Source of the DNA: a virus
Length of the DNA stretch: 39,922 nt
Direction: 5' to 3' (one strand)
IMG/VR virus record: IMGVR_UViG_3300031999_000081
Location: 1-39,922 of that record
Positions 4,075-27,706 of the stretch are shown in pieces. Made by a program: the position numbers and the translations under genes. Position 1 is the first letter of the stretch. Every line of letters starts with the position of its first letter. Below the pieces are notes generated by a model that had not been told where the DNA came from, did not search any database, and was given only the letters and a program-made list of their open reading frames with translations.

Positions 4075-6051
4075 TTATTGTTGAGGCGGTTTGACTCGCT
4101 CCGCTGTTTGTTGTTCTGATGCTTTTAATGCATTAGATATAGCTACCAATTTCTCAAGATGACCCAAGTCCATCTCTTCTAATTCTTTCATAGCTTTAAC
4201 CTTATCTAAAGTTGCGCGCTCATCAGCAGCAGCCGATTCGTGAACTCTTGACACATACAGTCCTTGATCTGCCATAGCCCTTGAATTAGCCAAGTTTGCC
4301 CTTGCCTGCAATTCTTGCATTGTAATCTCAGCTTGTTGTTGTGCTTGTTGAGCTTGTGCTTGAGAATTCTTAAGAATAGAATCTGTAAGCTTTTTCTTAT
4401 TTTGGATAGTTGCAGCCTCAAGTAATACATCATCAGGAATTGGAACTCCAGCTTGACGTAGTTCAAGTATCTGAGCAAATTGCATTTGTCTTTGTGTTGC
4501 AGTATTCAATCCTTCTTCAACTGCAGCATCATATCTTCCAAAAGCTTTGTTATAAAACTGGGCCGTTGGCTCAGCTTCTAATATTCGTTTTATCTTGCCC
4601 GGAGTAAAGTTAACTTGTATAAGATCAATCATTAACTTACCAAGTAACTTTTGGGACCTATCAAGTTGATCAAATAAATTCTGTAAAGTAGTCAGTCCAG
4701 AACCTTGACGAAGCATACTTAAAATACCAGCCTTATCATCAGTAGCTGACCCTAAAAGTTCTTCATTAACACCAGATATTTCCATTATCTCTTTAGCTAG
4801 AAGCTCTGAAAGTTGAATCATTGATGGTGGTATTTGTGGTGCTTCAATTCGTTGTACATCAGTCATCTGTGCTTCTTCTTTCAAAGCAAGACCACGACCT
4901 TGGCCAGACAAGAATACATCTTTAGGGTTAACTAAAGCATTCTCTTTATATATCCAACCAGAATTAAGCTGAGACTCTAATATGTCTAATTCAATTTGAC
5001 GTCTACGATTATATAGATATTGTGCATCACGAAGACCACGTACAACACCTTGAATACGCCATGGGAAATATGGTGATTGTGGATTGTAATAAGCAAAGAC
5101 CGGCACAAATGGATAATTATCAATACCCATAGGATTTGGTCCATCGTACATTACTTTACCCTGAACAACAATTGCAAGACGGATTGTTGGTATCTCTTGT
5201 TCTATTACTGTAACTTGTGGATATGTTCTTAAGAACTCACCTAAAGCTTCTTCTTCTTTAGAGCGCCATTCCATTGCCTCGCCAGTTTGTGTATCAACTA
5301 GCATCTTCTGTGTTCTTGAATCCTTATAGTAAAACTCATCATAAGTATAAAGATTCTTATATCCATAATTATAAGACTCAGGCATAAACTGGAACTTACC
5401 ATCCCTACCAGTGCCTTCAGCATTACTATGTAAATTTAATATTTCTTCAGATCTACCTGGAAGTAATGATAATATCTCACGCTTTGAAACAAATGAACGT
5501 TTCCATATAGCTCTGCAATCTGATAAGTCAGGTTTACGGAAATATGGATCTATTAAGAAGCTATTATATGAACAGTTATCAACTTTAATATCGCCTGAAA
5601 CTGGATCTTTTCTATAGTCTAACCAGACCTGAAGCAAGTTCATTCCAGTAACTAGACCACCATAAAATGACTCTGATATGGTCTCTAAAACCCCTTCTTG
5701 ATCATTAACCCACATAATAACTTTGGTAAACTGATCAGCAGTCTCAGAATCCCCATTCTCAACAGGCGTAACAATTGTAGACTTTCTGTTCCTTCTTTGA
5801 TGCCCACCTATCATTTGTAGAGTACGTCTAATACGATTAAAATTAAATTGACGACGACGACTTGCTGGAAGATTACCATAAATATCATTCCAGAGTGTTT
5901 GATCCCCAGATTCGAATCTAGTGTCAGTGTCCGCTTCACCCCAAAAGCTTTGATTGATAGTTATCGATTCAGCATAGAAAGATTCCATGCGTGATAAAAC
6001 ATCACGATGGGGTTCATTATAATACTGCGGTCCAATTTCAGGGAACAACAT
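4075..6051 (-). CDS. Portal protein
   Basis: This 658-residue protein should form the dodecameric ring at the head vertex through which DNA is packaged. It has the usual P22-type portal layout: an N-terminal helical region with SRRRQFNFNRIRRTLQMIGG, a central crown/wing part (LDYRKDPVSGDIKV, SYNSFLIDPYFRK, RAIWKRSFVSKREI), a conserved YPFVPVFAYYNP segment, RGLRDAQYLYNRRRQIELDI, and ISGVNEELLGSATDDKAGI near residue 440. A glutamine/alanine-rich coiled-coil barrel follows (about 560-600, QAQAQQAQQQAEI). Length and gene order (terminase, portal, scaffold, capsid) agree. The start at 6051 has AAGGAG 5 nt upstream. Confidence 0.9.
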   Translation of the reverse strand: MLFPEIGPQYYNEPHRDVLSRMESFYAESITINQSFWGEADTDTRFESGDQTLWNDIYGNLPASRRRQFNFNRIRRTLQMIGGHQRRNRKSTIVTPVENGDSETADQFTKVIMWVNDQEGVLETISESFYGGLVTGMNLLQVWLDYRKDPVSGDIKVDNCSYNSFLIDPYFRKPDLSDCRAIWKRSFVSKREILSLLPGRSEEILNLHSNAEGTGRDGKFQFMPESYNYGYKNLYTYDEFYYKDSRTQKMLVDTQTGEAMEWRSKEEEALGEFLRTYPQVTVIEQEIPTIRLAIVVQGKVMYDGPNPMGIDNYPFVPVFAYYNPQSPYFPWRIQGVVRGLRDAQYLYNRRRQIELDILESQLNSGWIYKENALVNPKDVFLSGQGRGLALKEEAQMTDVQRIEAPQIPPSMIQLSELLAKEIMEISGVNEELLGSATDDKAGILSMLRQGSGLTTLQNLFDQLDRSQKLLGKLMIDLIQVNFTPGKIKRILEAEPTAQFYNKAFGRYDAAVEEGLNTATQRQMQFAQILELRQAGVPIPDDVLLEAATIQNKKKLTDSILKNSQAQAQQAQQQAEITMQELQARANLANSRAMADQGLYVSRVHESAAADERATLDKVKAMKELEEMDLGHLEKLVAISNALKASEQQTAERVKPPQQ

Positions 6052-6118
6052 AATCGTCTCCTTAATTTCTAATGGATATTATGTTGCAAGTCTAGAATTA
6101 GTGGGAAACTATTTCAAG

Positions 6119-6469
6119 CTATTCTTTGGGTTCTTCAACTTTGCAACCCTTACAATTACATTTGTCTTGAATTAGTTTCTTTTCTTCAATGTACTTCCAT
6201 TTATCTTCAAACCATTCAACAAATTGTTGTTGATCTGGATAATATTCTTTAACAAATTCAATAGATGGCTTAAGCATTAAAATAAGATTTAACATACGAT
6301 AGTCAGTACCGTTTTGGCCTTGAAGAAGTAGAATCTTCTCTTTCTCTTCCATCTCTTTATTATCAATTATCGCTAAGGCTTCTTTATTAATGCTATATAT
6401 ATTTTGAATTGCCCAAGCAATACAATGTTGTAACGCTTTTGTCTCTTTATTAATCACTGTATCCATCAT
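6119..6469 (-). CDS. Unknown small protein between terminase and portal
   Basis: This 116-residue, mostly helical and acidic protein (WAIQNIYSINKEALAIIDNK, FVEWFEDKWKYIEEKK) has a C-terminal cysteine cluster CNCKGC at about residues 104-109 that could bind a metal. There is no family assignment. It starts at ATG 6469, overlapping the end of the upstream 55-residue gene by 20 nt, which implies translational coupling. A role in packaging or head assembly is possible from position alone. Confidence 0.7.
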   Translation of the reverse strand: MMDTVINKETKALQHCIAWAIQNIYSINKEALAIIDNKEMEEKEKILLLQGQNGTDYRMLNLILMLKPSIEFVKEYYPDQQQFVEWFEDKWKYIEEKKLIQDKCNCKGCKVEEPKE

Positions 6470-6617
6470 CTTCCTTTCCTGTTAGTTCTTCGATTAAAAC
6501 TTCTACTTGTTCATCAACCCATTCAATTAAACTACTGCTTGAAGTATCAACAATAAGTTGAGTTTCTAATAATAACTTAATTTGTTCTAAAAGTTTAACT
6601 TGTTCTTTATCTAACAT
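6450..6617 (-). CDS. Small acidic helical protein, 55 aa
   Basis: The ATG at 6617, preceded by AAGGAGTCAA, opens a 55-codon frame: MLDKEQVKLLEQIKLLLETQ at the start, then DTSSSSLIEWVDEQVEVLIE and an acidic tail. Heptad-like leucines suggest one or two amphipathic helices. It starts 9 nt after the large terminase stop and overlaps the next gene by 20 nt, so it fits the operon. It is unrecognised. It is too short for most gene-calling thresholds but well supported by the ribosome binding site and coupling. Confidence 0.65.
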   Translation of the reverse strand: MLDKEQVKLLEQIKLLLETQLIVDTSSSSLIEWVDEQVEVLIEELTGKEDDGYSD

Positions 6618-6625
6618 TTGACTCC

Positions 6626-7987
6626 TTATTCCGGATAATGATCTTTGTAGAAATTTGGCATATCACTATCACCATATCTTACTTCATTATAACGTTTTTC
6701 CAAATCCTGTGCATTAGAACCAGATTTACATTTAGGTAAACATAAACATAAATATCTTATAGCGTCGCAAAGATGTGAATGATTATCATGTAGTGGATGA
6801 TTATCATACATCTTTGTAACTTCATTATATTTCTTATGATAGTTTCGCAAAGACATTATTAACGACTTACATTTACTTTCATCAATATACGTTCTTGGCA
6901 ATGTAGTTCTAACGCATTCAATACCATCAATAATAGAAAGATTAGGAGCTAATAAGAAATTAAACCCTAACTGTCTTGCTTTCTCTATGCGTGATAAACC
7001 ACCTGAAGTAAACTCACGCACAGCAAGATCATGAGGCCCAAAATGCTTTGCCCATGTATAAGGTTTTGCTTGAAGAATATTTATGTAATGCTCAAGGCCT
7101 ACATTAGAATTCTGATACATATCTATAATATTTACTTGTCTACCAATAACCTGGAACATTAATATTGCTGTCTGATCTCGCATACCAATATCCCATGCAG
7201 AAAAGACAGGATAGTTTGGTTCCCAATCTACAATACCAATTTGGTTATTAAGCTCCATATTGTTTACATACTTAGCATAATAAGCACCTTGTGCACCAAT
7301 AGAAAAGCTACAAAAATACTCTTGAGTACTCTTATCTGGGCTCATCTCTCCAGAATCTATTTCTTTTTGTATCTGCTCTAAAGATATATGTCGCGTATCG
7401 TTCGTTGTCTTAAAGTAAGTAAACCATTCATCAGAGTTATTCTTAGCAACTTCATAAAGCGTAAAGAAATGATTCTCCCCAAATGGTGTAGATATAAACA
7501 TAACCCAACCATCATTTCCAAGAAGTACAGGCCTTAAAGTAGGGTAAGCTTGGGGATGGGAATACGCTGCTTCTGAAAATATTATTCCAACTGGATTACC
7601 ACCACGTAGAGAATCGAAATTATTGGAACCTGAAAATTGTATAATAGAACCGTTAATTAATGTTATTGTCATCTGTTGAATATTTTTCTTAAATATCAAC
7701 TCCTCAGGAATGAATTTGAGGATAGGATAACCCTCAGAAGTAAATCCCTGCCAAATTACTTCCCTAGCCTGTTTATTTGTAGGCAGTAGATAATAATAAA
7801 TTCCTACACGTTTTAGGGCTGCCTTTAACATAAGATTAAAACAGACAATATCCTTACCGCTTCTTCTTGGGAGAACGATTAATAATTTTTTGAATCCTTT
7901 TTCTTCAAATGCTTGGCATATTGGTAATTGATAATCACGGGCCTTAAAACGGTTAAGTTTTATTTGTGTTTCGACTGGTATCTTCAT
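6626..7987 (-). CDS. terL: Terminase large subunit
   Basis: This is the ATPase/nuclease motor that cuts and pumps phage DNA into the prohead. Of 453 residues, the Walker A motif PRRSGKD is at 40-46, a Walker B-like VGIIFSEAA at about 133-141 (serine in place of the usual aspartate before the catalytic glutamate, as in some phage terminases), and coupling motif STPFG at 167-171. The RNase H-like nuclease domain follows with D266 (AWDIG), D289 (IIDMY) and D408 (HLCDAIRY) as likely metal ligands. It overlaps the small terminase gene by 35 nt, with a GGAG site upstream. Length is normal to slightly short. Confidence 0.93.
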   Translation of the reverse strand: MKIPVETQIKLNRFKARDYQLPICQAFEEKGFKKLLIVLPRRSGKDIVCFNLMLKAALKRVGIYYYLLPTNKQAREVIWQGFTSEGYPILKFIPEELIFKKNIQQMTITLINGSIIQFSGSNNFDSLRGGNPVGIIFSEAAYSHPQAYPTLRPVLLGNDGWVMFISTPFGENHFFTLYEVAKNNSDEWFTYFKTTNDTRHISLEQIQKEIDSGEMSPDKSTQEYFCSFSIGAQGAYYAKYVNNMELNNQIGIVDWEPNYPVFSAWDIGMRDQTAILMFQVIGRQVNIIDMYQNSNVGLEHYINILQAKPYTWAKHFGPHDLAVREFTSGGLSRIEKARQLGFNFLLAPNLSIIDGIECVRTTLPRTYIDESKCKSLIMSLRNYHKKYNEVTKMYDNHPLHDNHSHLCDAIRYLCLCLPKCKSGSNAQDLEKRYNEVRYGDSDMPNFYKDHYPE

Positions 7988-8408
7988 TTCTCTTTTGTGT
8001 CTCCGTTTTTAAGACCCTACTTAAAATCTCCTCATATTCTTCAGGCTTAAGAGTTTTTCCATTATTATCTTCTTTAAGTTTGGCCCTAAATTTATGTTCT
8101 TCTTTATAATCATCGAGATATTGGGACAAAGGGAAAGCAATAACACTATTCATAGAATCGTGCATTCCCTTAAGAAATCTATTAATACCGCATTTTTCTT
8201 TAGCAATTTGATGAACTGTATTTAATTTTTTATTATTACGAACATGATCATAAAATGTTGTCTTGGGAATATGTCTAGGTATATAAAATTGAGAAATCAT
8301 ATAAACATCATCTCTCAATGCCCATTCTTCCAATAGCGTTGCTAGTTCCGCAGGACGAAACTTGTCGTATTCTTCAGGTCGCGTGCTATTCTTAGAAGAT
8401 TTCCCCAT
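7953..8408 (-). CDS. Putative terminase small subunit
   Basis: This 151-residue protein lies immediately upstream of, and overlaps, the large terminase gene. Residues ~15-65 contain a likely DNA-binding helical region (RPAELATLLEEWALRDDVY, then HIPKTTFYDHVRNNKKLN). The C-terminal part is charged and helical (LKPEEYEEILSRVLKTETQ). Small terminases recognise the packaging site and oligomerise. The call rests mainly on position and the HTH-like segment. The start at 8408 has AAGGAG upstream. Confidence 0.7.
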   Translation of the reverse strand: MGKSSKNSTRPEEYDKFRPAELATLLEEWALRDDVYMISQFYIPRHIPKTTFYDHVRNNKKLNTVHQIAKEKCGINRFLKGMHDSMNSVIAFPLSQYLDDYKEEHKFRAKLKEDNNGKTLKPEEYEEILSRVLKTETQKRNEDTSRNTNKT

Positions 8409-8416
8409 AGTTCTCC

Positions 8417-8545
8417 TTATCTCATTAATAAAAATATAATCATAATAGCAATTACAAACAAACTAAAATAACTAGGGAATAGGAATACTGATAAGAATGA
8501 AACGGCTAAAAAGAATAAAAGAGCAAAAGAAATAAAATCATACAT
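8417..8545 (-). CDS. Small hydrophobic membrane protein, 42 aa (holin candidate)
   Basis: The ATG at 8545 opens a 42-codon frame that is almost wholly hydrophobic: MYDFISFALLFFLAVSFLSV, a short FPSY turn, then a second segment ending FVIAIMIIFLLMR. That predicts a two-helix membrane hairpin. It begins 3 nt after the RusA stop and ends 8 nt before the small terminase start, so it fits the operon, but the Shine-Dalgarno is weak. Size and topology would fit a very small holin, and no other holin is obvious. It could also be an unrelated membrane peptide. Confidence 0.5.
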   Translation of the reverse strand: MYDFISFALLFFLAVSFLSVFLFPSYFSLFVIAIMIIFLLMR

Positions 8546-8548
8546 AAT

Positions 8549-9001
8549 TCATTCATAAACTCTAATTGTAAATTCGGTAAAACCTTTAGTATCGTATATT
8601 TTTTTAGCATAAATTTCATAAAAGATACAATCATCTTTGTAAAGAATACCATTACCCAGGTCGAGTATAAACTTAATTAGATTATCAATATCTGGTTTAA
8701 ATACATGTGGTTGAGTTAGGAGTTGTTGTTTGTTTAGCTTAGATAACTTATTAGGCACTTGGAAATGGAATATAACATTAAGACTAACAGGTCCTAAGAA
8801 TAATGGTTTTCTACCGTGTTGCTGCTTTAAGTTTAATCCGTGATAGAACTTAAGCTTCTTTTGTGGATCCCAAGTCCTTTTATTCCCATGTCTTGCTCTT
8901 TGGAGAGCGATTGGTTTTCCATCAATAATATAATTACCACTTCCCGCTACTAAATTTGTCCCGTGCTGCACGTTTTTGCTTTCTAATGAATCGTTCTTCA
9001 T
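8549..9001 (-). CDS. rusA: RusA-type Holliday junction resolvase
   Basis: RusA dimers cut four-way DNA junctions, in phages to debranch DNA before packaging or during recombination. The signature is KPDIDNLIKFILD (residues 102-114) followed by GILYKDDCIFYEI. The acidic residues D104, D106 and D124 match the family's metal-binding aspartates. The N-terminal strand region (YIIDGKPIALQRARHG, VSLNVIFHF) is also typical. The gene lies just upstream of the terminase genes, as in many phages, and overlaps the preceding gene's end by 68 nt. At 150 residues it is slightly long for the family, so translation may start downstream of 9001. Confidence 0.88.
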   Translation of the reverse strand: MKNDSLESKNVQHGTNLVAGSGNYIIDGKPIALQRARHGNKRTWDPQKKLKFYHGLNLKQQHGRKPLFLGPVSLNVIFHFQVPNKLSKLNKQQLLTQPHVFKPDIDNLIKFILDLGNGILYKDDCIFYEIYAKKIYDTKGFTEFTIRVYE

Positions 9002-9287
9002 TCTCTTTATTTTCGTTTATTATAGTTGATTCTAGTTCTTTTCGCCATTGTAAAACTAGAGCGTCAACATGTACCCATTCTTCTTCATTAATATTAATCT
9101 CAGGATTCTCTGAAATAATGGAGTAGAGTTCTTGATTTCTACCATTAACCAGCGCGGCGGCCAACTCATGTAGTTCAGAACAGTTGTTAAACCGATTACA
9201 AATATTGCCGGAATGGTAGTAAACATTTAGGAGTTTCTTCTCTTCATCCGTAAAGTTAAGTTGCTTCCCAAATAAATCATTCATCAT
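8934..9287 (-). CDS. Unknown helical phage protein, 117 aa
   Basis: I place the start at the double ATG at 9287 (MMNDLFGKQLNFTDEE), which has AGAAGGA upstream. The frame is open to 9353 but that would overlap the previous gene. The protein is acidic then basic at its C-terminus (RFIRKQKRAARDKFSSGKW), with a central EINEEEWVHVDALVLQWRKE helix. No family is recognised. It is co-transcribed with and overlaps the RusA gene, suggesting a DNA metabolism role by association only. Confidence 0.65.
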   Translation of the reverse strand: MMNDLFGKQLNFTDEEKKLLNVYYHSGNICNRFNNCSELHELAAALVNGRNQELYSIISENPEININEEEWVHVDALVLQWRKELESTIINENKENEERFIRKQKRAARDKFSSGKW

Positions 9288-9312
9288 AAGATATCCTTCT
9301 ACTTCGTTAAAA

Positions 9313-9648
9313 CTACGAAGAACTATCGTCAAAGTTAAATGGATTTGAGTCAAATTCTAACGTAGGCGAATCTTTTTGTACATCATGGGGATTTGTATTC
9401 TCCTGATTACTTCCCCCCATTTTAAGGAATCCTGGTTCTTTCTTTTCCTGAGTTTGTATTAATTCGTTCAATTTATTTACAAACTTTAATCGTAGAGATT
9501 CCTTAGAGATATTCATAAAAGTAGAATAATCATCAGCATATTCTTCATACCATATTGCAAAGCGATCTATGTTTTCTTTATAGCTTTTTGATACCCATGG
9601 TTGTGGTGGGTGTACTATAACTTGATTATTACGTACTCTGTTTTCCAA
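9313..9648 (-). CDS. Unknown protein with acidic C-terminal tail
   Basis: This frame of 111 residues appears to start with TTG at 9648 (AAGG upstream). The front half contains an aromatic helical stretch (SYKENIDRFAIWYEEYADDY). The C-terminal third is low-complexity and acidic, ending FNFDDSSS, reminiscent of the protein-binding tails of single-strand DNA-binding proteins, though no OB-fold pattern is visible. It lies between the winged-helix-like gene and RusA. Function is unknown. Confidence 0.55.
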   Translation of the reverse strand: MENRVRNNQVIVHPPQPWVSKSYKENIDRFAIWYEEYADDYSTFMNISKESLRLKFVNKLNELIQTQEKKEPGFLKMGGSNQENTNPHDVQKDSPTLEFDSNPFNFDDSSS

Positions 9649-9667
9649 CTCTAAAACCTTTCGCTCG

Positions 9668-10375
9668 TTAATCTTCCCATTCTATTCCAGCATCTTTAAA
9701 CTTTGCTCTTAACATTTCTTCTAACGTTTGTGGTTCTTTTTGTAAAGGTAATTTTGTTTGATACTTTGGAATAACATTAACAACTTTTTTCATATCACTA
9801 TCGTTACCTTTTGTAAGTAAATCTACCTTTCCTTGTAGAATTTTCCTTTGGTTCTTTTCCTTTTCTTCCGATTCTTTTATCTTGTTATCAAAGTTACTTA
9901 AGATTAACTCATTATATATATAAGTTCTTAGAACATTAGTACATTGTAGCCAATTTCTTGGAAACAGAGATTGAATCTTTTTTTGCAAATAATAGAAATA
10001 TGGTAGAAATTGAGCTAAAAGTTCTTGTATGTTTTGGTATGAAAACCATGGCGATATTTTATAGAAATTTGTTATTTTTACCCCCCTATTAAATTTTGAC
10101 ATTAAACCTTCTTCTATAAACTCATCAAAATATATTTTTAATGCTGATACGCTACAATGTGCCATTTTTGCTATAGTTTCTTCCGTCGCGTATACATTTT
10201 GATATCTATTGCATAATGTTACTATCGCATTTAATGCCATTTTTTTCTTGTATGTCCAGGATTTTATTTTTCCAACTATAAATCTATCCCTGGGTAAAGG
10301 GTTGAAATTTCTCCATTTTTGATATTCATAAATAAAGACTTGCTTTTTATTTAAGTTTTGGTTTACTGAAATCAT
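9668..10375 (-). CDS. Winged-helix DNA-binding protein, possible replication initiator
   Basis: In this 235-residue basic protein, residues ~30-110 look like a winged helix-turn-helix of the phage replication/DnaD-like or MarR-like type: MALNAIVTLCNRYQNVYATE, then TIAKMAHCSVSALKIYFDEF, then EEGLMSKFNRGVKITNFYKI. The rest is lysine-rich (QTLEEMLRAKFKDAGIEWED at the end). In phages of this size without a polymerase, such a protein often recruits the host replisome. That role is inferred. It could instead be a regulator. The start at 10375 has AAGGG upstream. Confidence 0.6.
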   Translation of the reverse strand: MISVNQNLNKKQVFIYEYQKWRNFNPLPRDRFIVGKIKSWTYKKKMALNAIVTLCNRYQNVYATEETIAKMAHCSVSALKIYFDEFIEEGLMSKFNRGVKITNFYKISPWFSYQNIQELLAQFLPYFYYLQKKIQSLFPRNWLQCTNVLRTYIYNELILSNFDNKIKESEEKEKNQRKILQGKVDLLTKGNDSDMKKVVNVIPKYQTKLPLQKEPQTLEEMLRAKFKDAGIEWED

Positions 10376-10383
10376 AAAACAAC

Positions 10384-10414
10384 CCTTGTTTTTGCTTTAA
10401 ACAAAGGCTTTTTT
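10384..10414 (+). terminator. Plus-strand terminator-like hairpin
   Basis: CCTTGTTT (10384-10391) pairs with AAACAAAGG (10399-10407) with one bulge, followed by CTTTTTT on the plus strand. It faces against the leftward genes around it. Opposite-strand transcripts, if any, would end here. Confidence 0.4.
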
Positions 10415-10436
10415 ACTAAATACTTAAAGTAATACT

Positions 10437-10670
10437 TTAACATTGAATCACTCCTGTGTAATTCCTTGCTTTTAGCTTTAGATAAAGGCTTTCATTGAAA
10501 CAACTTCCTTGTTTCTTTGCTTTGTTTTTGGCTTGGGTTCTTTTACCTTTAGTTCTTAACCGGGGGGTTAGGGATTTAGAAAATAGACTAAGACGCTTAA
10601 AACAGGCGTCTTTTTCTTTTTTTATACTTTTTACTTGATTTTTTATTGGAGACTTGGTAATTTGAATCAT
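10437..10670 (-). CDS. Doubtful basic ORF in a hairpin-rich stretch
   Basis: This open frame of 77 codons encodes a very basic peptide (SLTPRLRTKGKRTQAKNKAK) with no recognisable fold. AAGG lies 7 nt before the ATG at 10670. The frame covers a terminator-like hairpin (10590-10620) and a purine-rich repeat tract, so its composition may simply reflect RNA structure. It could be a small DNA-binding protein, or this 410-nt interval (10376-10786) may be regulatory and non-coding. Confidence 0.3.
   Translation of the reverse strand: MIQITKSPIKNQVKSIKKEKDACFKRLSLFSKSLTPRLRTKGKRTQAKNKAKKQGSCFNESLYLKLKARNYTGVIQC
10590..10620 (+). terminator. Plus-strand terminator-like hairpin
   Basis: AAGACGC (10590-10596) pairs with GCGTCTT (10606-10612) and runs into TTTTTCTTTTTTT. 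The orientation is plus, opposite to the genes on either side. Confidence 0.5.
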
Positions 10671-10707
10671 AAATAAACCTTTTTTTATAGTAGAGAAAAG
10701 TTGTTTA

Positions 10708-10733
10708 AGACGTTGGTGTAAAAACCAGCGTCT
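10708..10733. other. Perfect 10-bp hairpin related to the one at 10590
   Basis: AGACGTTGGT (10708-10717) and ACCAGCGTCT (10724-10733) pair fully (one G.T) around a 6-nt loop. The outer AGACG/CGTCT arms are the same as in the hairpin at 10590-10612. It lies 54 nt past the stop of the DUF551 gene. The following bases are AT-rich on both strands, so direction is unclear. Confidence 0.5.
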
Positions 10734-10786
10734 ATTTATTTTTACTCTAGGAATTCTAATTTCAATCTAAAATTCCAAAAAGCTTA

Positions 10787-11434
10787 TTACAATTCAGTCT
10801 CTTTAGCAATAATAAATTCTAATTTTATTTTCCATCTACCATCTGGAATTATATGAACAATATTTTCACGACGCAATTTTTCACTTAAAAACATTTCTAA
10901 AAATTCACATTCCATATCAAGTATCTCCTTTTCATCAAAGCTTGTATTATTTTGTAATTTTAAATAAATCATTGCAGTTAATGCTAAATCGTCATTATAT
11001 TCATTCTCATTTATTATACTAAAATCTTCTTTTAAAGTTGCTTCATCTAAACTTTCTAACCAATCTTTTATATTTTTATTTTCTTGGTTTATTTTGAACA
11101 AAGAAAAACTTATCGGATATTTATTTGTTTTAAATTTTTCTTGTATTTCATCTTCGCTTAAATCATATTCATTTGAATGATTTTCTAGAATTTTTATAGA
11201 TGATTCTTTAGGTTTTTCTGGTAACGGCATCCAATGAGTAACGTTTTTTAATTTGCCATCTCCAAACGTCCATTGTGGTTTATTAGTTTTGTAACGTTCT
11301 TTGTCACTTTCATAAATTGACATTGCAATAATATATTCTGAATTAAGACCATCAAAAAAACTGTATGCTTGACCATACGCTAATATTTGTTGGTTTAGTT
11401 TTGGCATTTTATGTAATACATTAATCCATCTCAT
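10787..11434 (-). CDS. DUF551-domain phage protein
   Basis: This 215-residue protein starts MRWINVLHKMPKLNQQILAY and contains VTHWMPLPEKP at about residues 65-75; these two elements define the short DUF551 domain found in many phage early genes. The remaining ~130 residues are acidic, helical and unassigned (EDEIQEKFKTNKY, KEILDMECEFLEMFLSEKLR). Biochemical function of DUF551 is unknown. The start at 11434 has AAGGAATAAATA upstream and follows the HTH gene by 3 nt, so both are in the leftward early operon. Confidence 0.8.
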   Translation of the reverse strand: MRWINVLHKMPKLNQQILAYGQAYSFFDGLNSEYIIAMSIYESDKERYKTNKPQWTFGDGKLKNVTHWMPLPEKPKESSIKILENHSNEYDLSEDEIQEKFKTNKYPISFSLFKINQENKNIKDWLESLDEATLKEDFSIINENEYNDDLALTAMIYLKLQNNTSFDEKEILDMECEFLEMFLSEKLRRENIVHIIPDGRWKIKLEFIIAKETEL

Positions 11435-11437
11435 TAT

Positions 11438-11701
11438 TTATTCCTTTGCGCCTTTTAAAGTTTCTAAACACTTTTGTACCATTGCACAATAATCACATTT
11501 AAACTTAGGACTTTCTTTTTTCCATTCTCCTGATTCTTTTAAGATCTTCTCTAAGTCTTCCTTCTTATAAAGTCTGTATTTATTTATGGGATTCCTATAA
11601 ACAGAAATCTTATTCAACTTCTCCCAATTGCGTAATGTAAATAACGAAACCCCAAGAAACTTCGCCGCTTCTTTTATTTTTAGATATTCATTAATTTTCA
11701 T
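11438..11701 (-). CDS. Excisionase/MerR-type helix-turn-helix regulator with C-terminal cysteine cluster
   Basis: In this 87-residue protein, residues 5-55 form a MerR-like HTH (LKIKEAAKFLGVSLFTLRNW, then YRNPINKYRLYKKEDLEKIL), as in excisionases and plasmid/phage regulators. A short C-terminal segment has CDYCAMVQKC, possibly a metal site. It is the first gene leftward from the divergent promoter region and so is a natural candidate to regulate it. No integrase is present, so an excisionase role is unlikely. The start at 11701 has AAAGG upstream. Confidence 0.8.
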   Translation of the reverse strand: MKINEYLKIKEAAKFLGVSLFTLRNWEKLNKISVYRNPINKYRLYKKEDLEKILKESGEWKKESPKFKCDYCAMVQKCLETLKGAKE

Positions 11702-11723
11702 CTTAACCTTTCTATATAGAAGT

Positions 11724-11752
11724 AGTATAAACTTTTATAAAAAGACTTGCAA
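11724..11752 (-). promoter_or_regulatory. Leftward early promoter, shares its -35 box with the rightward one
   Basis: On the minus strand TTGCAA (11752-11747) is followed by 17 nt and TATACT (11729-11724). The start of the HTH gene is 23 nt beyond. TTGCAA is its own reverse complement and also serves the rightward promoter. Confidence 0.65.
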
Positions 11753-11774
11753 TGTTTGTTTTATGTGTTACACT
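11747..11774 (+). promoter_or_regulatory. Rightward early promoter for the ERF operon
   Basis: TTGCAA (11747-11752), 16 nt, TACACT (11769-11774), about 38 nt upstream of the ATG at 11812. A short direct repeat (TAATGTT/TTAATGTT) just downstream of the -10 box could be a regulator site. Confidence 0.6.
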
Positions 11775-11811
11775 AATGTTAGTTAATGTTTAAATAGATC
11801 AAAGGGAAACA

Positions 11812-12060
11812 ATGAAAAGTAGATTATCAATTGATGAATTAAATAAACGTATAGAACTTCAAATAAATAAAAAGATGGAACAGTTTAGTAAGTTGGGTGT
11901 TGCAGCCAAAGCCACTTCTCAATTAGTAATAGACTACCAAAAAAAGATGTATGACATCTTAAAAGAATTAGAATCACATGAAGGTTTATTACGTACTCAA
12001 CGTCCTGAATTATGTGAGTTGTTTGATGCTCTTAAAGAAGAATTTAAAGCTAAAGAATAA
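11812..12060 (+). CDS. Small helical early protein, unknown
   Basis: This 82-residue, charged, probably all-helical protein (LSIDELNKRIELQINKKMEQ at the N-terminus, LCELFDALKEEFKAKE at the end) is the first gene of the rightward operon. The start has AAAGGGA upstream. No family is recognised. Its position before the ERF recombinase suggests an early or recombination-accessory role, which is only a guess from context. Confidence 0.7.
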   Translation: MKSRLSIDELNKRIELQINKKMEQFSKLGVAAKATSQLVIDYQKKMYDILKELESHEGLLRTQRPELCELFDALKEEFKAKE

Positions 12061-12062
12061 TT

Positions 12063-12317
12063 ATGAAAAAAATCTTATTGTTACCTATAACTTTTATGTG
12101 CTTTAATTTACATTCTGATCCAGATCCATCTTATGGACTCAGACCTTATGTGGACTTTCTTGAATTGCAAGAGTTAGTTGAAAAAATAGATACAACAATG
12201 GAGATACAATGGAACGAAATAACAAAACTTACCTTCAAACAAATTAAATATCTGCGTGAAGAAAATGATAAACTAAAACTTATTCTTAGTGATATAAAGG
12301 ATTGCAATGGAAAATAA
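12063..12317 (+). CDS. Small protein with N-terminal signal-like segment
   Basis: This 84-residue protein begins MKKILLLPITFMCFNLHSDP, which resembles a short export signal (basic start, hydrophobic core, possible cleavage after LHS). The remainder is a charged helix, likely coiled coil (LTFKQIKYLREENDKLKLIL). It could be a periplasmic or membrane-associated accessory. Its end overlaps the ERF start by 11 nt, so it is translationally coupled. The weak ribosome binding site and the short length leave some doubt. Confidence 0.6.
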   Translation: MKKILLLPITFMCFNLHSDPDPSYGLRPYVDFLELQELVEKIDTTMEIQWNEITKLTFKQIKYLREENDKLKLILSDIKDCNGK

Positions 12318-12969
12318 TGAGATCTTAAAACAAACACCTCCAGAACCAACAAAATCAAAGGAATTAAACGAATTATTCTCTGCAATGGCTAAAGCTCAAT
12401 CCGAGATAAAAACAGCTAACCTTGACGCAGAAAACCCTTATTTTAAAAGTTCGTTTTCCAGTCTTGCCGAGATCATGCGGGTATCTCGGCCGGCCTTAAC
12501 TAAAAATGGGCTTTCTGTCATCCAACAAGTATTGCCCAATGAAGAGGGCCAAAATGTTCTCCACACAATTTTGGCTCACTCTTCTGGGCAATGGATTGAA
12601 ACTCAAATGAAGATAGTTCCTACTAAACCTGACGTTCAAGCCCTTGGCAGCCTTATAACTTATTTGCGTAGATATTCTTATGCTGCTATCGTTGGGGTAG
12701 TTTCTTCAGAAGAAGATGACGACGGTGAGCAATCGCTTACCGAAGAACACTCAAAAATAAATAAATTTGACTCAAGAGAGCAAACTAACGAAACTCTTAC
12801 CAAAGAACAACTTGAAGAACTTAATTATGAATTGGATGGGCATCCTAATATTGCTCAACAGATTCTTGAGGGTATGAAGATACAGTCATTAAGTGAAATT
12901 CCAAAATCGAAATTTATAGCAGCAATCAATCGCGTTAGGGCGATTAAAACTTTGAGGAATGGTAAATAG
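12307..12969 (+). CDS. erf: ERF-family single-strand DNA annealing protein
   Basis: ERF proteins anneal complementary single strands and in phages such as P22 circularise or recombine genome ends. This 220-residue protein has the family core: ELFSAMAKAQSEIKTANLDA, PYFKSSFSSLAEIMR, a WIETQMKI strand, and the conserved QALGSLITYLRRYSYAAIVG near residues 115-135, followed by an acidic EEDDDGE stretch. The C-terminal region is a variable tail. The ATG at 12307 has AAGGA 5 nt upstream. RusA across the divergent promoter region would resolve the junctions that ERF creates. Confidence 0.92.
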   Translation: MENNEILKQTPPEPTKSKELNELFSAMAKAQSEIKTANLDAENPYFKSSFSSLAEIMRVSRPALTKNGLSVIQQVLPNEEGQNVLHTILAHSSGQWIETQMKIVPTKPDVQALGSLITYLRRYSYAAIVGVVSSEEDDDGEQSLTEEHSKINKFDSREQTNETLTKEQLEELNYELDGHPNIAQQILEGMKIQSLSEIPKSKFIAAINRVRAIKTLRNGK

Positions 12970-12995
12970 TTAACCAATATTAAAGGAGTGTAGTT

Positions 12996-13274
12996 ATGTT
13001 GAATGAATTCTTTAAAAATATGGGTAATAAAATGAATGAAAATATCATCAGTAAATATAACCCTCCTACCAAGTTTGAACAGTTACCTGTTGGAACTATA
13101 TGGATAGTCCAAGGCGATCATCCTGAATATTTTATTCAACTATCTTATGACGTTGAAAAACCTCAATGGGAAAGATTGGGTACATTCTTTGAAACAATAT
13201 TCAAAGAACATATAACTAATGAAATTTTCTTAATCGAATGTTTGAAACTATTTGCTGAGAACAAGAAAGCCTAA
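12996..13274 (+). CDS. Unknown small protein, last gene of the rightward operon
   Basis: This 92-residue protein has a strong AAAGGAGTG site 7 nt before the ATG at 12996. The middle part (YNPPTKFEQLPVGTIWIVQG, then EYFIQLSYDVEKPQWERLG) looks like a small beta-rich domain. The C-terminus is helical. An alternative in-frame start lies at 13032 (MNENIISKYN). No family is recognised. A convergent hairpin overlaps its stop codon. Confidence 0.7.
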   Translation: MLNEFFKNMGNKMNENIISKYNPPTKFEQLPVGTIWIVQGDHPEYFIQLSYDVEKPQWERLGTFFETIFKEHITNEIFLIECLKLFAENKKA

Positions 13275-13297
13275 GAGTAAATATATTAGACTTTCTT
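13263..13297. terminator. Convergent bidirectional terminator
   Basis: AAGAAAG-C-CTAA (13263-13274) pairs with TTAG-A-CTTTCTT (13286-13297), one mismatch, loop GAGTAAATATA. It overlaps the stop codons of the two convergent genes that end at 13274 and 13286. Because it sits between converging operons it can end transcription from both sides. Confidence 0.55.
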
Positions 13298-13573
13298 ATT
13301 CGAAGTAGAATGTTTTTTTTTAGCTAGTTCAAGGTTTTTTTGGAACTCTTCTTTTCTCATTCTATTTTCTTCACCAAAAAGTTCTTCATTTTCAATATCT
13401 TCAAACCATACCAAATTGTCATTGTAGTCACATATTTCTTTTTCTAATTCAACAGATTGTTCATACATCTTTTCCAGCAATGCTGCCTGTTTATACGTGA
13501 AAAATGAATAGTCTACTACAAAGCCAGTGACTAGCCCTCCAACAAATATAATAATTGGTATGAACTGTACCAT
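13286..13573 (-). CDS. Membrane-anchored coiled-coil protein, possible spanin
   Basis: This 95-residue protein has one N-terminal membrane helix (FIPIIIFVGGLVTGFVVDY, residues 4-22), then a charged coiled coil (LLEKMYEQSVELEKEICDY) and a lysine-rich end. Size and topology resemble the inner-membrane i-spanin (Rz) class that disrupts the outer membrane at lysis, but no partner lipoprotein gene overlaps it. It is the last gene of the fibre block, a usual place for lysis genes. The call is tentative. Confidence 0.55.
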   Translation of the reverse strand: MVQFIPIIIFVGGLVTGFVVDYSFFTYKQAALLEKMYEQSVELEKEICDYNDNLVWFEDIENEELFGEENRMRKEEFQKNLELAKKKHSTSNKKV

Positions 13574-13648
13574 CGTTTTTCCTTAATACTTAACTTTTAT
13601 CTTTCTTTTAATTGTTATACTTTTATTTCCATTTAATACAATCATTTC

Positions 13649-15751
13649 TTAACAAACTAACCAACCCTGAACAAATGTATGTGGACAATTTGCTGGACAC
13701 CCTGCAACTGTCCCTACAACTCCTACTGTTTTAAGACCTGAATCAACATGAACAGTGAATATTGCTGTATCACCTATAGCCATATCTGCAAATGTACCAA
13801 AAGACAGAGATAACATGTTAAGTATACTTGCATCTTTACATACGCCCGGATTTAGTTGGCCACCATGATATTCTCTTGTTGTAGTAGTAATATGTATTGC
13901 CATCTTATTATGAGCAGCTCCCAAATCCCTTAAAGTTGTATTTAGTGAAAAATAATATTTTCCAGCCACAGGAGCTGTGAAAGTAGAAATACCATCAAAA
14001 TCATTATTTTGATCAAATATTTCTGTATCAAATATCATTGTATAGACTGTTCCATCACCAGTTACATTAAGACGATCAATTGTATTCCAAGCAGAAAATG
14101 CTGGTTGTAATGGATAATTAATTTCACCTGAAAACCTGGCTGTCATCGCATTACCAACACCACTAGCCAAACTGAAATTATTGCCGCCATATCTTAAATC
14201 TAATGATGAAGCTACTATGATCGAACCTACCGTTACTTGCTTACTAGCTCCACCTGTTCCTATATTAACTGTAGTTGCAGCTGCATCATTTGATATATCA
14301 ATTTGATTAACACCATTATTCAAAGTTGCAGTTCCTGGCGTTGTCGTACCAAGCTGACCATTAGCATCAACTAAAACAACTTCAGCTCCTACACCAATTG
14401 TTGGGGTTGCTGTTATTCCTGCAACATAAGCTTGATTTTGTTGCCCATCGCCACCACCTTGAGCTCCAATTCTTATCCTATGAGAATCACCTGCAAAAGC
14501 TGATTGACCAATAATTATATTACTACTATCTGCAACTGTTAATGACACTCCTGCTAAATCACCTAAAATAACGTTATAACTACCGGTTGTAAAAGTTGCT
14601 CCTGATCCATATCCTATAGATGTATTATTTGATCCTATGCAATTTACTAATGCAGCTGAACCAAGACTGGTGTTATTACTTGTCGTTGTTAATAAACGAC
14701 CTGAATTCCATCCTATAAGTGTATTGTTGTTACCTGTAGAAATTGATTGTCCAGATTGATAGCCACTTGCTGTATTATTATCTCCAGTTGTAAGCTCATA
14801 TAATGAATAGGATCCTACTCCGGTATTATTATTACCTATTGTTGCATGGGCTAAAGCAGTCCTTCCAATAGCAGTATTATCGTTACCGCTTAGCAAGACG
14901 AGTAAACTCCCTGATCCTAGAGCAGTGTTATTAATACCTGTTGTTAAGGAAAACAATGAACTTTGGCCTACCCCTGTATTGTCATTGCCTGTTGCATGTG
15001 CTAAGGCGAGAGTTCCCACTCCGGTATTAAAGCTACCTGTTGTCACGGCGTCTAAAACCCCTGCTCCTAAAGCTGTATTATAAAGACCGGTTGTTAATCT
15101 AAACAGAGCAGATGCTCCTACTGCAGTATTATAGTCAGTTGTTGTTATGGAAGTTAAGGCTCTTTGCCCCACAGCAGTGTTATAGTTACCTGTAGTTAAA
15201 CTAGCTAAACTAGTTATTCCAATAGCAACATTATTTGTTCCGGTTGTAAGATTAGTTAGAGTACCCATTCCAAGACTGGTATTACTATTACCAGTTATAG
15301 CAGCATTGCCTGAATTCATTCCAATAATCGTATTGGATAAAATATCTGTTACATTCAATTGAAGAGTATTTGGTGCAGGTACGCTTGAAAATTGAACACT
15401 AGAACCACTGTTAACAACAGCATTTCCTGTAATAATATTTATATTTCCAGCAACATCTGGATCAACTACTATACCAGTATCACCTGTTAAAGAATTGACA
15501 TCACCGCCCCCAAAACTCATCCAACTTCCAACATGATTAATTTTTGACACTAACATATATAAATTGTCAGATGTTGGTAATACAGGTGGAGCTAATCTTA
15601 AACTAGAAGTATCTAACCAAATTGTGCCTATATTAAAGTTCATAAAATCATTTGGAGTTGGTACTTTATTATGCATCACAAATTGTGGTGGCGTAGATGA
15701 CTCTACCCCCGTATATGCCATTGGATTTAATCCAGAAATATTCGAACTCAT
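13649..15751 (-). CDS. Tail fibre/receptor-binding protein with YadA-like repeats and C1q-like tip
   Basis: The N-terminal ~120 residues of this 700-residue protein (TPPQFVMHNKVPTPNDFMNF, TIWLDTSS) probably attach to the virion. From about 150 to 420 there are many ~14-residue repeats of the type TTGNNNTAVGxxAL, as in the left-handed beta-roll heads of trimeric YadA-type adhesins. A linker GDGQQNQAYVAGITATP follows. The last ~150 residues (FDQNNDFDGISTFTAPVAGK, YYFSLNTTL) resemble a C1q/TNF-like jelly-roll, a common trimeric receptor-binding tip. It is the distal gene of a series of fibre genes sharing the repeat module. Function is inferred from architecture. Confidence 0.82.
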   Translation of the reverse strand: MSSNISGLNPMAYTGVESSTPPQFVMHNKVPTPNDFMNFNIGTIWLDTSSLRLAPPVLPTSDNLYMLVSKINHVGSWMSFGGGDVNSLTGDTGIVVDPDVAGNINIITGNAVVNSGSSVQFSSVPAPNTLQLNVTDILSNTIIGMNSGNAAITGNSNTSLGMGTLTNLTTGTNNVAIGITSLASLTTGNYNTAVGQRALTSITTTDYNTAVGASALFRLTTGLYNTALGAGVLDAVTTGSFNTGVGTLALAHATGNDNTGVGQSSLFSLTTGINNTALGSGSLLVLLSGNDNTAIGRTALAHATIGNNNTGVGSYSLYELTTGDNNTASGYQSGQSISTGNNNTLIGWNSGRLLTTTSNNTSLGSAALVNCIGSNNTSIGYGSGATFTTGSYNVILGDLAGVSLTVADSSNIIIGQSAFAGDSHRIRIGAQGGGDGQQNQAYVAGITATPTIGVGAEVVLVDANGQLGTTTPGTATLNNGVNQIDISNDAAATTVNIGTGGASKQVTVGSIIVASSLDLRYGGNNFSLASGVGNAMTARFSGEINYPLQPAFSAWNTIDRLNVTGDGTVYTMIFDTEIFDQNNDFDGISTFTAPVAGKYYFSLNTTLRDLGAAHNKMAIHITTTTREYHGGQLNPGVCKDASILNMLSLSFGTFADMAIGDTAIFTVHVDSGLKTVGVVGTVAGCPANCPHTFVQGWLVC

Positions 15752-15805
15752 TATTATCTCCTATTTAGTTTGCTTGGTTTTCATTATTGCAATCCTATTA
15801 TTATT

Positions 15806-16882
15806 CTAAAAAGAAACTATTCGATAAGTTATAGTCATGTAAACTACATTATTATCTTCAGCGTTTCCTGTAATTGCAGCATCTGAAGAGAAGTCTGTTG
15901 GTTCATCTTCAAGATTAGCTGCCGCACCAATTGTACGATGAGCAGTCAAAATATTATTAGTAATTTCCACCATGCTTTGACTTTGTGTAATGGTAGCATT
16001 GCTCATTGCTTGCATATTTGTATTATTAACAAAAAAAAGTGATCCCGTACCTGTAAAAGGACTAGTCCCACCATAACTCAATTTAGTTGCACCGATTATT
16101 GGCACTATGACTTTACCAGCACCTGCATTAAAGATAACAATACGCGTAGTGTACCATGCCGCTTTTACATGTGCTGAAGTAGTTGGTCTATTAACGAAAC
16201 GTATATATTCGTCAGTTCCAAGTTGATCACTTGCATCTACTTGAACATTGGAAAATGTAAAATTTGAAACACCACCGTCTATATGTGGATTTCCAGTAAT
16301 ACCAGCAATAAAACAGTTATCTTGTTGACCAGCGCCGCTACCTGCGGTACCAATTATAATCTTATTACCATCACCTACGGTACCGGTATTTCCTATAATT
16401 ATATTGCTACTATCAGCTAAAGTTAGAGAAGATCCTGCTGAATATCCTAAAAGAGTATTATTAGCGCCTGTTACAATACTATTACCTGCACTGTATCCAA
16501 CAGCTGTATTATTTCCACTAATTGATGTTATATTGCATAAAGTATTTACTCCACATGAAGTATTATTACTATTACTTGACGATACAAACATTGAACTGTT
16601 TACACCTACAGCAGTATTATAAGCAGACGTAACTAGACTCTGTAGACTATTTGTACCTATACCAACATTAAATCTAGCATTACCTACAGTTAAACTTCCA
16701 TTTCCTGAAGAAGCTCCTAAGAATGTATTCTCTGTTCCAAAGCTATGTATAAAACGAACTGCATTAATATTTATAACTCCAGTTGTAAGTGCACTATTCG
16801 TTGTAGATAAAGCAAGGTTACCAGTACCTATTGTAAAATTAGAAATTGAACTTCTATTGTTAACACTATTTATAGTAGCCAT
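15806..16882 (-). CDS. Fibre paralogue A: YadA-like repeats, C-terminal module 1
   Basis: This 358-residue protein has three modules. Residues 1-~65 (ISNFTIGTGNLALSTTNSAL, then FLGASSGNGSLT) are shared with the next two genes leftward in transcription order. Residues ~70-190 are YadA-like repeats (GNNTAVGYSAGNSI) ending in GDGNKIIIGTAGSGAGQQDN. Residues ~220-358 form a beta-rich module (KVIVPIIGATKLSYGGTSPF, SSDAAITGNAEDNNVVYMTI) shared only with the gene at 16921-17985. It is probably a trimeric fibre or accessory receptor binder. The start at 16882 has AAGGAAAC upstream. Confidence 0.78.
   Translation of the reverse strand: MATINSVNNRSSISNFTIGTGNLALSTTNSALTTGVININAVRFIHSFGTENTFLGASSGNGSLTVGNARFNVGIGTNSLQSLVTSAYNTAVGVNSSMFVSSSNSNNTSCGVNTLCNITSISGNNTAVGYSAGNSIVTGANNTLLGYSAGSSLTLADSSNIIIGNTGTVGDGNKIIIGTAGSGAGQQDNCFIAGITGNPHIDGGVSNFTFSNVQVDASDQLGTDEYIRFVNRPTTSAHVKAAWYTTRIVIFNAGAGKVIVPIIGATKLSYGGTSPFTGTGSLFFVNNTNMQAMSNATITQSQSMVEITNNILTAHRTIGAAANLEDEPTDFSSDAAITGNAEDNNVVYMTITYRIVSF
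16425..16464. repeat. 40-bp direct repeat between fibre paralogues, copy 1
   Basis: This is identical to 17534-17573 in the neighbouring fibre gene. It falls in the YadA-like module, while the flanking bases differ at several sites, as expected after gene conversion or recent duplication. Confidence 0.8.
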
Positions 16883-16920
16883 AATTGTTTCCTTAATTAT
16901 TTTAGTATGTTCTTTTTTAG

Positions 16921-17985
16921 TTAATGCAAAGAAACTATTGTATAAATAATTTTTACTATAATCGTGTTATTATTAGCTGCATTTCCCGTAATTGCAGCAT
17001 CTGCAAAAAGTTCTATTGCTAAATTTGTCATTGCAGCAGAAGTATCAGCATAAGAATCATTGATCCAATTAGTAATTTCTATCGTATCTGCAGATAATAC
17101 AACAGTAGAGTTAGTTACTGGTTGTATTATCATTTGTGCAGCACCAACATATCTACACTGAATATTCCCCGCACCTGTAAAAGGATTAGTCCCAGCATAA
17201 ACCAATTTACTAGCAGTAGTTATTGGAACTATAACGCTATAAACGTCACCAGGGGATGCAATTATAGAAATTGGTGTTGCATTTAAAGCTTTTACCTGTG
17301 CTGATGTCAATGTTACACTAGCTTCATATAAAGGAAATCCAGCAGTTCCTAATTCGCCACTTGAATTTATTACAACATTTAAACCACTTGTAACCGCAAC
17401 TCCACTTATTCCAGCAACATAGCATTTATTTTGTTGTCCAGCGCCACTGCCAGTTGTACCAATCCTTATCTTGTTAGAGTCACCTACGGTTCCAGTATTT
17501 CCTATAATTATATTGCTACTATTTGCTAACGTAAGAGAAGATCCTGCTGAATATCCTAAAAGAGTATTATTAGTGCCTGTTACTATATTTGCGCCTGCAT
17601 TATATCCTGCAGCTGTGTTGTTTCCAGTTGTCGTTAGATTATATAAAGCACTAGCTCCCATAGCAGTATTATTACTACCTTGGGTCAAAAGAATTAAAGC
17701 TTTTCTTCCTACAGCCGTATTATAAGAACCAGTCGTTAGCGCATTTAAAGTACTATATCCTACTCCAGTATTATATTTGCTTGAACCTGAAGTTAATGTA
17801 CCGTTGCCTGAAAGTTCACCCAAAAATGTGTTTTCTGTTCCAAAAGCATGCATAAACGGAACTGCATTAACTGTAATAACTCCAGTTGTTAATGCAGCAT
17901 TTGTCGTAGATAATGCAAGATCGCCAGTACCTATTGTAAAGTCAGAAACATCCGTTTTATTATTATTACTATTTATTGTTGCCAT
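16921..17985 (-). CDS. Fibre paralogue B: YadA-like repeats, C-terminal module 1
   Basis: This 354-residue protein has the same three-part plan as its neighbour at 15806. Module N is VSDFTIGTGDLALSTTNAAL; then come YadA-like repeats (GSYNTAVGRKAL, GNNTAAGYNAG), the linker GDSNKIRIGTTGSGAGQQNK, and a C-terminal module with VIVPITTASKLVYAGTNPF and FADAAITGNAANNNTIIVKI. A 40-base stretch (17534-17573) is identical to 16425-16464 in the neighbour although the flanks have diverged. That points to recent duplication or gene conversion. It is likely a tail fibre component. Confidence 0.78.
   Translation of the reverse strand: MATINSNNNKTDVSDFTIGTGDLALSTTNAALTTGVITVNAVPFMHAFGTENTFLGELSGNGTLTSGSSKYNTGVGYSTLNALTTGSYNTAVGRKALILLTQGSNNTAMGASALYNLTTTGNNTAAGYNAGANIVTGTNNTLLGYSAGSSLTLANSSNIIIGNTGTVGDSNKIRIGTTGSGAGQQNKCYVAGISGVAVTSGLNVVINSSGELGTAGFPLYEASVTLTSAQVKALNATPISIIASPGDVYSVIVPITTASKLVYAGTNPFTGAGNIQCRYVGAAQMIIQPVTNSTVVLSADTIEITNWINDSYADTSAAMTNLAIELFADAAITGNAANNNTIIVKIIYTIVSLH
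17534..17573. repeat. 40-bp direct repeat between fibre paralogues, copy 2
   Basis: This is identical to 16425-16464. Recombination between the copies would swap the C-terminal modules of paralogues A and B or delete 1.1 kb. Confidence 0.8.
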
Positions 17986-17994
17986 TCTATCTCC

Positions 17995-27211: not shown

Positions 27212-27628
27212 TTATAATTTATATAATTTATATATTGATAGAAAATATAAATATATACCAGAGATAGAAGATATGATTGCTGTTTTATTATACTGAGCAA
27301 AATCTTCTGGATTGTTATTTATAATATAAGACACCCCTAAAGCTAAAAATGCAGTTACCATAGAAATAGGTGACAATAGTTTAATATGTTTTGCATTTGT
27401 AACCATTGACTGTGTTAATAAAGAAGAGCCTAAAACTAAATGCCCTGTACCTAATATTGCTCTATCTGATCTTTCTTCTTTCTGGCTAAGCGATTCTACA
27501 TATAAGACTAAAGAAGAAATAAAATTAACCCCACATGTAGTAATTCCTATTCCATTAATTACATCATTTGTATTTGCATGCAACGATGAACTTAAAATTA
27601 AAAAGAATATCAAACTAAATTTACGCAT
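27212..27628 (-). CDS. Secreted or membrane protein with four hydrophobic segments
   Basis: I place the start at ATG 27628, which has GAGAGG 7 nt upstream. The resulting 138-residue protein has a clear signal peptide (MRKFSLIFFLILSSSLHA, cleavage before N) and then about four membrane segments (GVNFISSLVLYVE; AILGTGHLVLGSSLLTQSM; ISMVTAFLALGVSYII; ISSISGIYLYFLSIYKLY). It is not recognised. It could be a superinfection-exclusion or lysis-related protein, but nothing in the sequence proves that. It is leftward, between two rightward cargo genes. Confidence 0.6.
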   Translation of the reverse strand: MRKFSLIFFLILSSSLHANTNDVINGIGITTCGVNFISSLVLYVESLSQKEERSDRAILGTGHLVLGSSLLTQSMVTNAKHIKLLSPISMVTAFLALGVSYIINNNPEDFAQYNKTAIISSISGIYLYFLSIYKLYKL

Positions 27629-27706
27629 GGCAGCACCTCTCATATTTATAGAAATATATATACATCTCGAATGGTATTCTTCTTAAATATATTAACAACT
27701 TATACG

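Follow-up and report, generated by a model that had tools for sequence, protein, structure and literature searches.

In the bidirectional promoters described by Warman et al., transcription starts on opposite strands lie 7–25 bp apart around a shared −10 element (PMC10268837, PMC12825309), and in those of E. coli studied by Warman, Grainger and colleagues, where the distance is usually 10–23 bp, one symmetrical element is read both ways, a polymerase bound in one direction excludes the other, and the promoter often separates the gene of a regulator from its target (PMC12825309). At five such E. coli promoters, transcription was basally too weak for the two directions to compete, and competition emerged only on activation (PMC12825309). 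Overlapping divergent promoters under a regulator that is encoded on one side are also known already, as in the case of pLS20 Pr/Pc, where the core elements of the two promoters are presumed to coincide crosswise, −10 with −35 and −35 with −10, and where Rco activates as well as represses its own promoter and loops the DNA (PMC4207663). MerR-type repressors are known in such a setting, too: CvkR of the type V-K CAST, a protein of 150 aa with its own dimerisation domain, binds a 15-nt inverted repeat in the region of overlap between the cas12k and cvkR promoters; at cas12k, most of the motif falls within a 21-nt spacer, CvkR autoregulation was not supported, and the promoters of the MerR family are described there as having 'atypical long spacers' (PMC9938897). 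Finally, BldC is a short MerR-like winged helix-turn-helix (wHTH) protein that binds to direct repeats of AATTXXXX(C) in head-to-tail order (PMC5859096).

The locus described here lies in the sequence of an uncultured phage that was analysed over its entire length (the full 39,922 nt of an IMG/VR virus record, hereafter the window). A 110-nt gap (11702–11811) separates a minus-strand ORF of 87 aa (11438–11701) from a plus-strand ORF of 82 aa (11812–12060), and both ORFs are preceded by purine stretches that by eye resemble Shine–Dalgarno sequences (AAAGG on the minus strand at 11707–11711, AAAGGGA on the plus strand at 11801–11807). Direct reading of the gap reveals the hexamer TTGCAA at 11747–11752, which is its own reverse complement and a candidate −35 box on both strands. 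Leftward, a 17-nt spacer (11730–11746) leads to the −10 hexamer TATACT (AGTATA on the plus strand, 11724–11729) with a predicted start near 11717; rightward, a 16-nt spacer (11753–11768) that ends in a TGn extension (11766–11768) leads to TACACT (11769–11774) with a predicted start near 11781. The palindrome and both spacings are thereby exactly, to the base, those of the original prediction.

As far as the sequence tells, two predicted divergent core promoters overlap here with coinciding −35 boxes, which places the pair among the overlapping divergent promoters of the pLS20 Pr/Pc kind. As in pLS20, one of the two would drive a regulator gene, and a candidate operator of that regulator lies over both; however, only the −35 box is shared in the phage, and no second, distant operator was found in it (PMC4207663). 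As in the E. coli bidirectional promoters, a single symmetrical element could be read both ways, but the phage pair shares the −35 instead of the −10 element, and its predicted starts lie about 64 bp apart (PMC12825309); on both counts, the pair falls outside the definition of a bidirectional promoter by Warman et al. What appears to be new is the shared −35 box with a merged operator. In the literature searched, mostly without subscription and older promoter papers, we found no paper on a shared −35 box, with or without such an operator, and we make no claim of priority.

Most genes of the window are oriented leftward, including the portal gene (4075–6051). The 87-aa ORF is the first leftward gene and encodes the candidate repressor of both promoters. 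It is followed on the minus strand by the gene of a 215-aa protein with DUF551 (10787–11434; PF04448, 4.9e-9) as second leftward gene, and further on by genes for a DnaD-like helicase loader (9668–10375; weak match, phrog_186, 1.9e-4), a RusA-like resolvase (8549–9001; phrog_140, 8.9e-23), and the terminase large subunit (6626–7987; phrog_2, 1.3e-27). The rightward arm is a short island of four plus-strand ORFs (11812–13274). It begins with the 82-aa ORF, which belongs to no family and has weak homologs in the ERF arm of the relatives L104 and L112, with no relative found in a single-protein scan; an 84-aa ORF, likewise without family (12063–12317), the ERF single-strand annealing protein (12307–12969; PF04404, 1.9e-21; phrog_2324, 4.3e-44), and a 92-aa ORF (12996–13274) follow. 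The labels originally given to the arms, packaging/HTH and ERF, are thus slightly off, as the leftward arm also has the DnaD-like loader and RusA and the rightward arm is an island of four ORFs. RNA elements or tRNAs were not found in the window. Two terminator-like hairpins with T runs are present on the plus strand (10590–10612 and 10708–10733) among genes that run leftward, and a plus-strand ORF at 4–513 contains a LAGLIDADG-like stretch (LAGLIDSEG, by eye) with no NCBIfam match; an ORF of similar appearance lies near the HTH gene in the relative L003 (5680–6276).

Promoter strength and coincidence of the −35 boxes

Promoters were scored with a σ70 matrix of hexamer frequencies, supplemented by a TGn bonus and a spacer penalty, and the threshold of 9 was chosen when the weaker promoter of the window was already known to score 9.5. 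In the gap, there is one match of at least 9 per strand, the leftward one scoring 10.8, and the whole window has 83 such matches per strand, with the leftward promoter among the best 16. With D as the offset between two −35 boxes, TTGCAA at 11747 is the only pair of the window with D = 0 and both promoters at or above 9, and two further pairs are offset by one base (1341 and 27707). When the gap was dinucleotide-shuffled 20,000 times, a pair with D = 0 appeared in 0.045% of the cases, and a D of −1 or 0 in 0.44%; by a looser consensus criterion, the frequency was 0.5% of the gap shuffles, with 3 sites in the whole window versus 1.5 expected. When the right side was held, a left promoter of at least 9 at D = 0 was found in 5.6% of the shuffles, and one as strong as that observed in 1.4%. 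With one promoter given, an in-register partner arose in about 4% (214/5000) in the form of the test that was used for the family. The shared box is real and exceeds what is expected by chance for this gap, and alone it is not overwhelming.

The pairs offset by one base are observations of their own. At 27686–27735, a rightward TTGACA-17-TATATT with TGn (16.0) faces a leftward ATGTCA-16-TATATT (9.2) between a minus-strand ORF (27212–27643) and a plus-strand ORF (27726–28055), with a partner of this kind in 12% of shuffles, and at 1318–1370 a pair (TTAGCAA at 1341) lies in the gap between two leftward genes.

It is the rightward promoter that invites doubt. Only the leftward promoter might be real, with TTGCAA serving as its −35 box and as part of an operator, so that the rightward match would be a chance product and the ERF island would be driven by another or a host-specific promoter. 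The rightward match (8/12) fell below the limit of the promoter scan and went unlisted, the leftward one (9/12) being listed; with its score of 9.5, it ranks 63rd on its strand, 62 other plus-strand matches in the window scoring at least as high; and with the left side held, a right promoter fell into register in 3.3% of the shuffled right flanks. Against this stands that it is the sole rightward match of at least 9 in the gap, that it possesses a TGn extension, and that it is properly spaced from a gene with a Shine–Dalgarno-like stretch. We regard a solitary leftward promoter as rather unlikely, but as the strongest of the competing explanations.

The HTH protein and a candidate operator over the shared box

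The claim that the first leftward gene encodes an HTH protein was borne out by matches of the 87-aa product to PF00376 (MerR, 7.4e-9, 35.7 bits at a cut-off of 28.2) and PF12728 (HTH_17, 9.8e-8), and a PDB match was obtained with 3qao. The protein has an N-terminal winged helix domain of the MerR type, with about 30 aa behind it, and the dimerisation coiled coil and effector domain of MerR proteins are absent from it; we therefore call it only MerR-like. Its homologs in L002 and L003 likewise end soon after the wHTH domain. An IS607-type transposase or an excisionase was considered and rejected, as both matches were below their cut-offs (24.4 bits versus 110 for IS607, 23.2 versus 28.8 for excise). 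The protein resembles BldC in being a short MerR-like wHTH without coiled-coil dimerisation domain, and since BldC binds direct repeats, such a protein need not bind a palindrome, whereas the motif described below is an inverted repeat (PMC5859096). The arrangement is also like that of CvkR, in that a candidate MerR-type repressor of a mobile element has a predicted promoter that overlaps that of the candidate target at a short inverted repeat, but the phage protein, with its 87 aa, is smaller (PMC9938897).

The closest full-length homologs of the HTH protein are encoded by L002 (73% identical) and L003 (75%), and an inverted repeat of the type GCAA-N3-TTG[CT] overlaps the −35 box of the best promoter towards the HTH gene in the window and in both of these relatives. 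The repeats are GCAATGTTTGT in the window, where GCAA-N3-TTGC has one mismatch (11749–11759), GCAAGCATTGC in L002, and GCAATGTTTGC in L003, and the respective promoters are TTGCAA-17-TATACT (10.8), TTGCAA-17-TATGCT (8.5), and TTGCTA-16-TATCAT (9.9). Outside the motif, the three upstream regions barely align. The best 11-mer on either strand that is common to the three 110-nt upstream regions (ACAAACATTGC, GCAAGCATTGC, and GCAAACATTGC in the window, L002, and L003) begins 58, 57, and 53 nt upstream of the start codon, and its score of 18.4 was reached by none of 400 shuffled triplets (mean 13.6, maximum 16.8); the summed dyad match of 7+8+8 was not reached in 4000 shuffles, although the motif had been spotted by eye before testing, in three sequences of which the window copy has one mismatch. 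In the entire window, GCAAN3TTGC with at most one mismatch occurs 38 times versus 21 expected; 37 of these sites are coding, which leaves a single site between genes, at 11749.

In 12 of the 15 HTH loci examined (31–74% identical), the motif was absent, the best sites matching at 5 or 6 of 8 positions. Most of the loci without it are less alike or lie within operons; in L386 (57% identical), the gene may have its own promoter, in L096 and L112 the HTH genes (31–35%) are first leftward genes without the motif, and the 74% identity of the L388 protein extends over 38 residues only. Because an inverted repeat overlapping the −35 box is found again at this position upstream of the HTH genes of L002 and L003, the protein probably acts at the 110-nt gap, and we infer that TTGCAA doubles as half of its candidate operator. 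The case of a solitary leftward promoter also draws on these two relatives, where the motif serves a one-directional HTH promoter.

Other symmetries of the gap were considered. A perfect 12-bp palindrome, TTCTATATAGAA, at 11710–11721 covers the predicted leftward start and could be a second operator. That TTGCAA is the centre of a wider palindrome serving as dimer site was rejected, as the 28-bp symmetry, with matches at 6/11 flanking positions, does not exceed chance (p 0.45). The hexamer AATGTT occurs three times, and its copies at 11751, 11775, and 11785 (24 and 10 nt apart), the first within the candidate operator, can be set beside the direct repeats of the BldC type; the motif common to the homologs is an inverted repeat.

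The position of the candidate operator bears on the idea that the shared box forces the polymerase to choose an arm, with the HTH protein tipping this choice, perhaps through a block in just one of the directions. If both promoters are used, the geometry leaves room for one polymerase at a time, and the box is exactly shared; the either/or choice is doubtful, because it would require strong occupancy and both −35 boxes are poor, with only 4/6 consensus positions. With two weak boxes, polymerase exclusion may matter little. At the level of the protein, the candidate operator spans both −35 boxes, and one would expect the HTH protein to reduce transcription of both arms, its own gene included, so that the balance would not tip for that reason; an unequal effect is nonetheless conceivable, because the operator extends 7 nt into the rightward spacer, whereas for the leftward promoter it covers part of the −35 box and the sequence upstream of it. 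Activation through a long spacer, as by MerR proteins, was rejected: these act on promoters with spacers of 19–20 nt, and the spacers here have 17 and 16 nt. There is precedent for a choice in the MerR-type SoxR, which at soxS/soxR stimulates transcription one way and prevents it the other way, but the same source argues against basal competition, which was negligible at the five E. coli bidirectional promoters (PMC12825309). A choice between the arms is thus unlikely in our view. Nor does the HTH protein appear to be the usual switch regulator of the family, as a homolog was found in 13 of the 100 records searched, mostly elsewhere in the genome.

Divergence points in related phages

Relatives were collected as loci from queries with portal, terminase, ERF, and HTH. 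Among the 15 matches listed, no portal of an annotated phage exceeds about 25% identity to the portal protein of the window. One relative, L378 (CAIXAE010000018.1), is a 33.6-kb contig that was binned to a Methylococcaceae MAG and has a portal with 58% identity, which either hints weakly at the host or reflects faulty binning. In many relatives, ERF diverges from rus-terS-terL as in the window. Among the portal-family loci with ERF and terL in a later scan (n = 18), 13 were divergent, and the layout is not universal, since ERF is on the terL strand in the other five (L281, L282, L294, L306, and L310). The first leftward gene varies; it encodes an HTH_17/MerR protein in the window, L112, and L118, weakly so in L096, and other small proteins elsewhere.

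Near-consensus promoters of the TTGACA-16/17-TATAAT type are common at the divergence point of the relatives (for example in L061, L076, L082, and L129), which supports σ70-type promoters at this position in the family. It is therefore quite improbable that neither match in the window is a working promoter and that the phage uses other signals, even if AT-rich DNA often gives such matches, promoter-like sites at 6000–18000 are not in excess (50 versus 56.8 in shuffles), the matrix may not be that of the host, and the relatives in named genomes amount to one MAG contig.

The geometry of the promoters differs among relatives. L066 has an exactly shared TTGCAA, with TATAAT to the left and TATGAT to the right at 16 and 16 nt, and in L061, L076 (TTGACAA), L122, L129, and L170 the two −35 boxes are offset by one base. 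The boxes abut in L171, the overlap is at the −10 elements instead in L004 and L118, the promoters are further apart in L082, L096, and L104, and overlapping control regions were also seen in a second set, in L288 and L327. With plain dinucleotide shuffles, a D of −1 or 0 in 7 of 28 regions compares with 0.63 expected (0 of 300 sets), but this null destroys real promoters, and the D class was picked after the data had been seen. A fairer null keeps the strongest promoter and shuffles only its upstream side. It gave 1.9 expected against 4 of 25 observed for the first set without the window (34/300 sets), and 0.7 against 2 of 14 for the second set (46/300), which consists of new contigs with automatic gap calling, several gaps probably being misplaced by spurious ORFs. 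In the merged sets, 6 of 39 other regions had a partner within one base versus 2.7 expected (36/1000 sets). The first set left out L063, dropped before the counts as it has no scorable promoter, and L008, L044, L141, L142, L146, and L159, whose divergence point is unclear or cut off. Some of the overlap comes free, because TTGACA followed by A or T yields a box with 4–5 of 6 positions on the opposite strand, one base off.

In 33 of the 39 other regions of the family in which a promoter could be scored, there is no −35 partner within one base, so the shared geometry is not fixed in the family. The shared −35 box was thus rejected as a conserved family trait, the excess over plain shuffles shrinking under the fairer null, and is kept as weak support. 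We conclude from these comparisons of sequence that close-packed divergent promoters appear to be common in the family, with the shared −35 box as one of several forms.

A model for the control of both arms

The reading that we prefer, tentatively, is that the shared box and the candidate HTH operator constitute autorepressor-controlled divergent promoters that give one early pulse to both arms. The 110-nt gap would be the divergent control region between a leftward replication/packaging arm and the rightward ERF island, with TTGCAA acting as −35 box of the leftward TTGCAA-17-TATACT promoter and of the weaker rightward TTGCAA-16-TACACT promoter with its TGn, and as half of the 11-bp inverted repeat GCAA-TGT-TTGT that is bound by the HTH protein. 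As long as little HTH protein is present, polymerase would enter either way, one at a time and mainly leftward. Once the protein builds up, it would occupy the box, exclude σ region 4, and repress its own arm together with the ERF island. The autorepressor would thereby provide one early pulse for both arms and would not be a chooser between them. Promoter use, HTH binding, repression, and timing are what we infer here, and the simplest reading of the arrangement is that one element may have three uses, as leftward −35 box, as rightward −35 box, and as operator half-site.

A broader view, which we consider doubtful, is that the phage family exploits the near-symmetry of the −35 element, such that one −35 box, exact or shifted by one base, would drive both arms, with the operator merged in the present case. 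TTGaCAA reads TTGtCAA on the opposite strand, TTGCAA is perfectly symmetrical, and a single element of 11–15 bp could then serve two promoters as their −35 box and also shut both of them off.

In the literature compared, the published bidirectional bacterial promoters rest on −10 symmetry. If our reading is true, the phage possesses a natural promoter pair with a shared palindromic −35 box, and the role of −10 symmetry can also fall to the second core element, with starts that are further apart. The gap would then also be a small and readily rebuilt test case for the competition of polymerases and for the shutting of two promoters by one repressor via one box.
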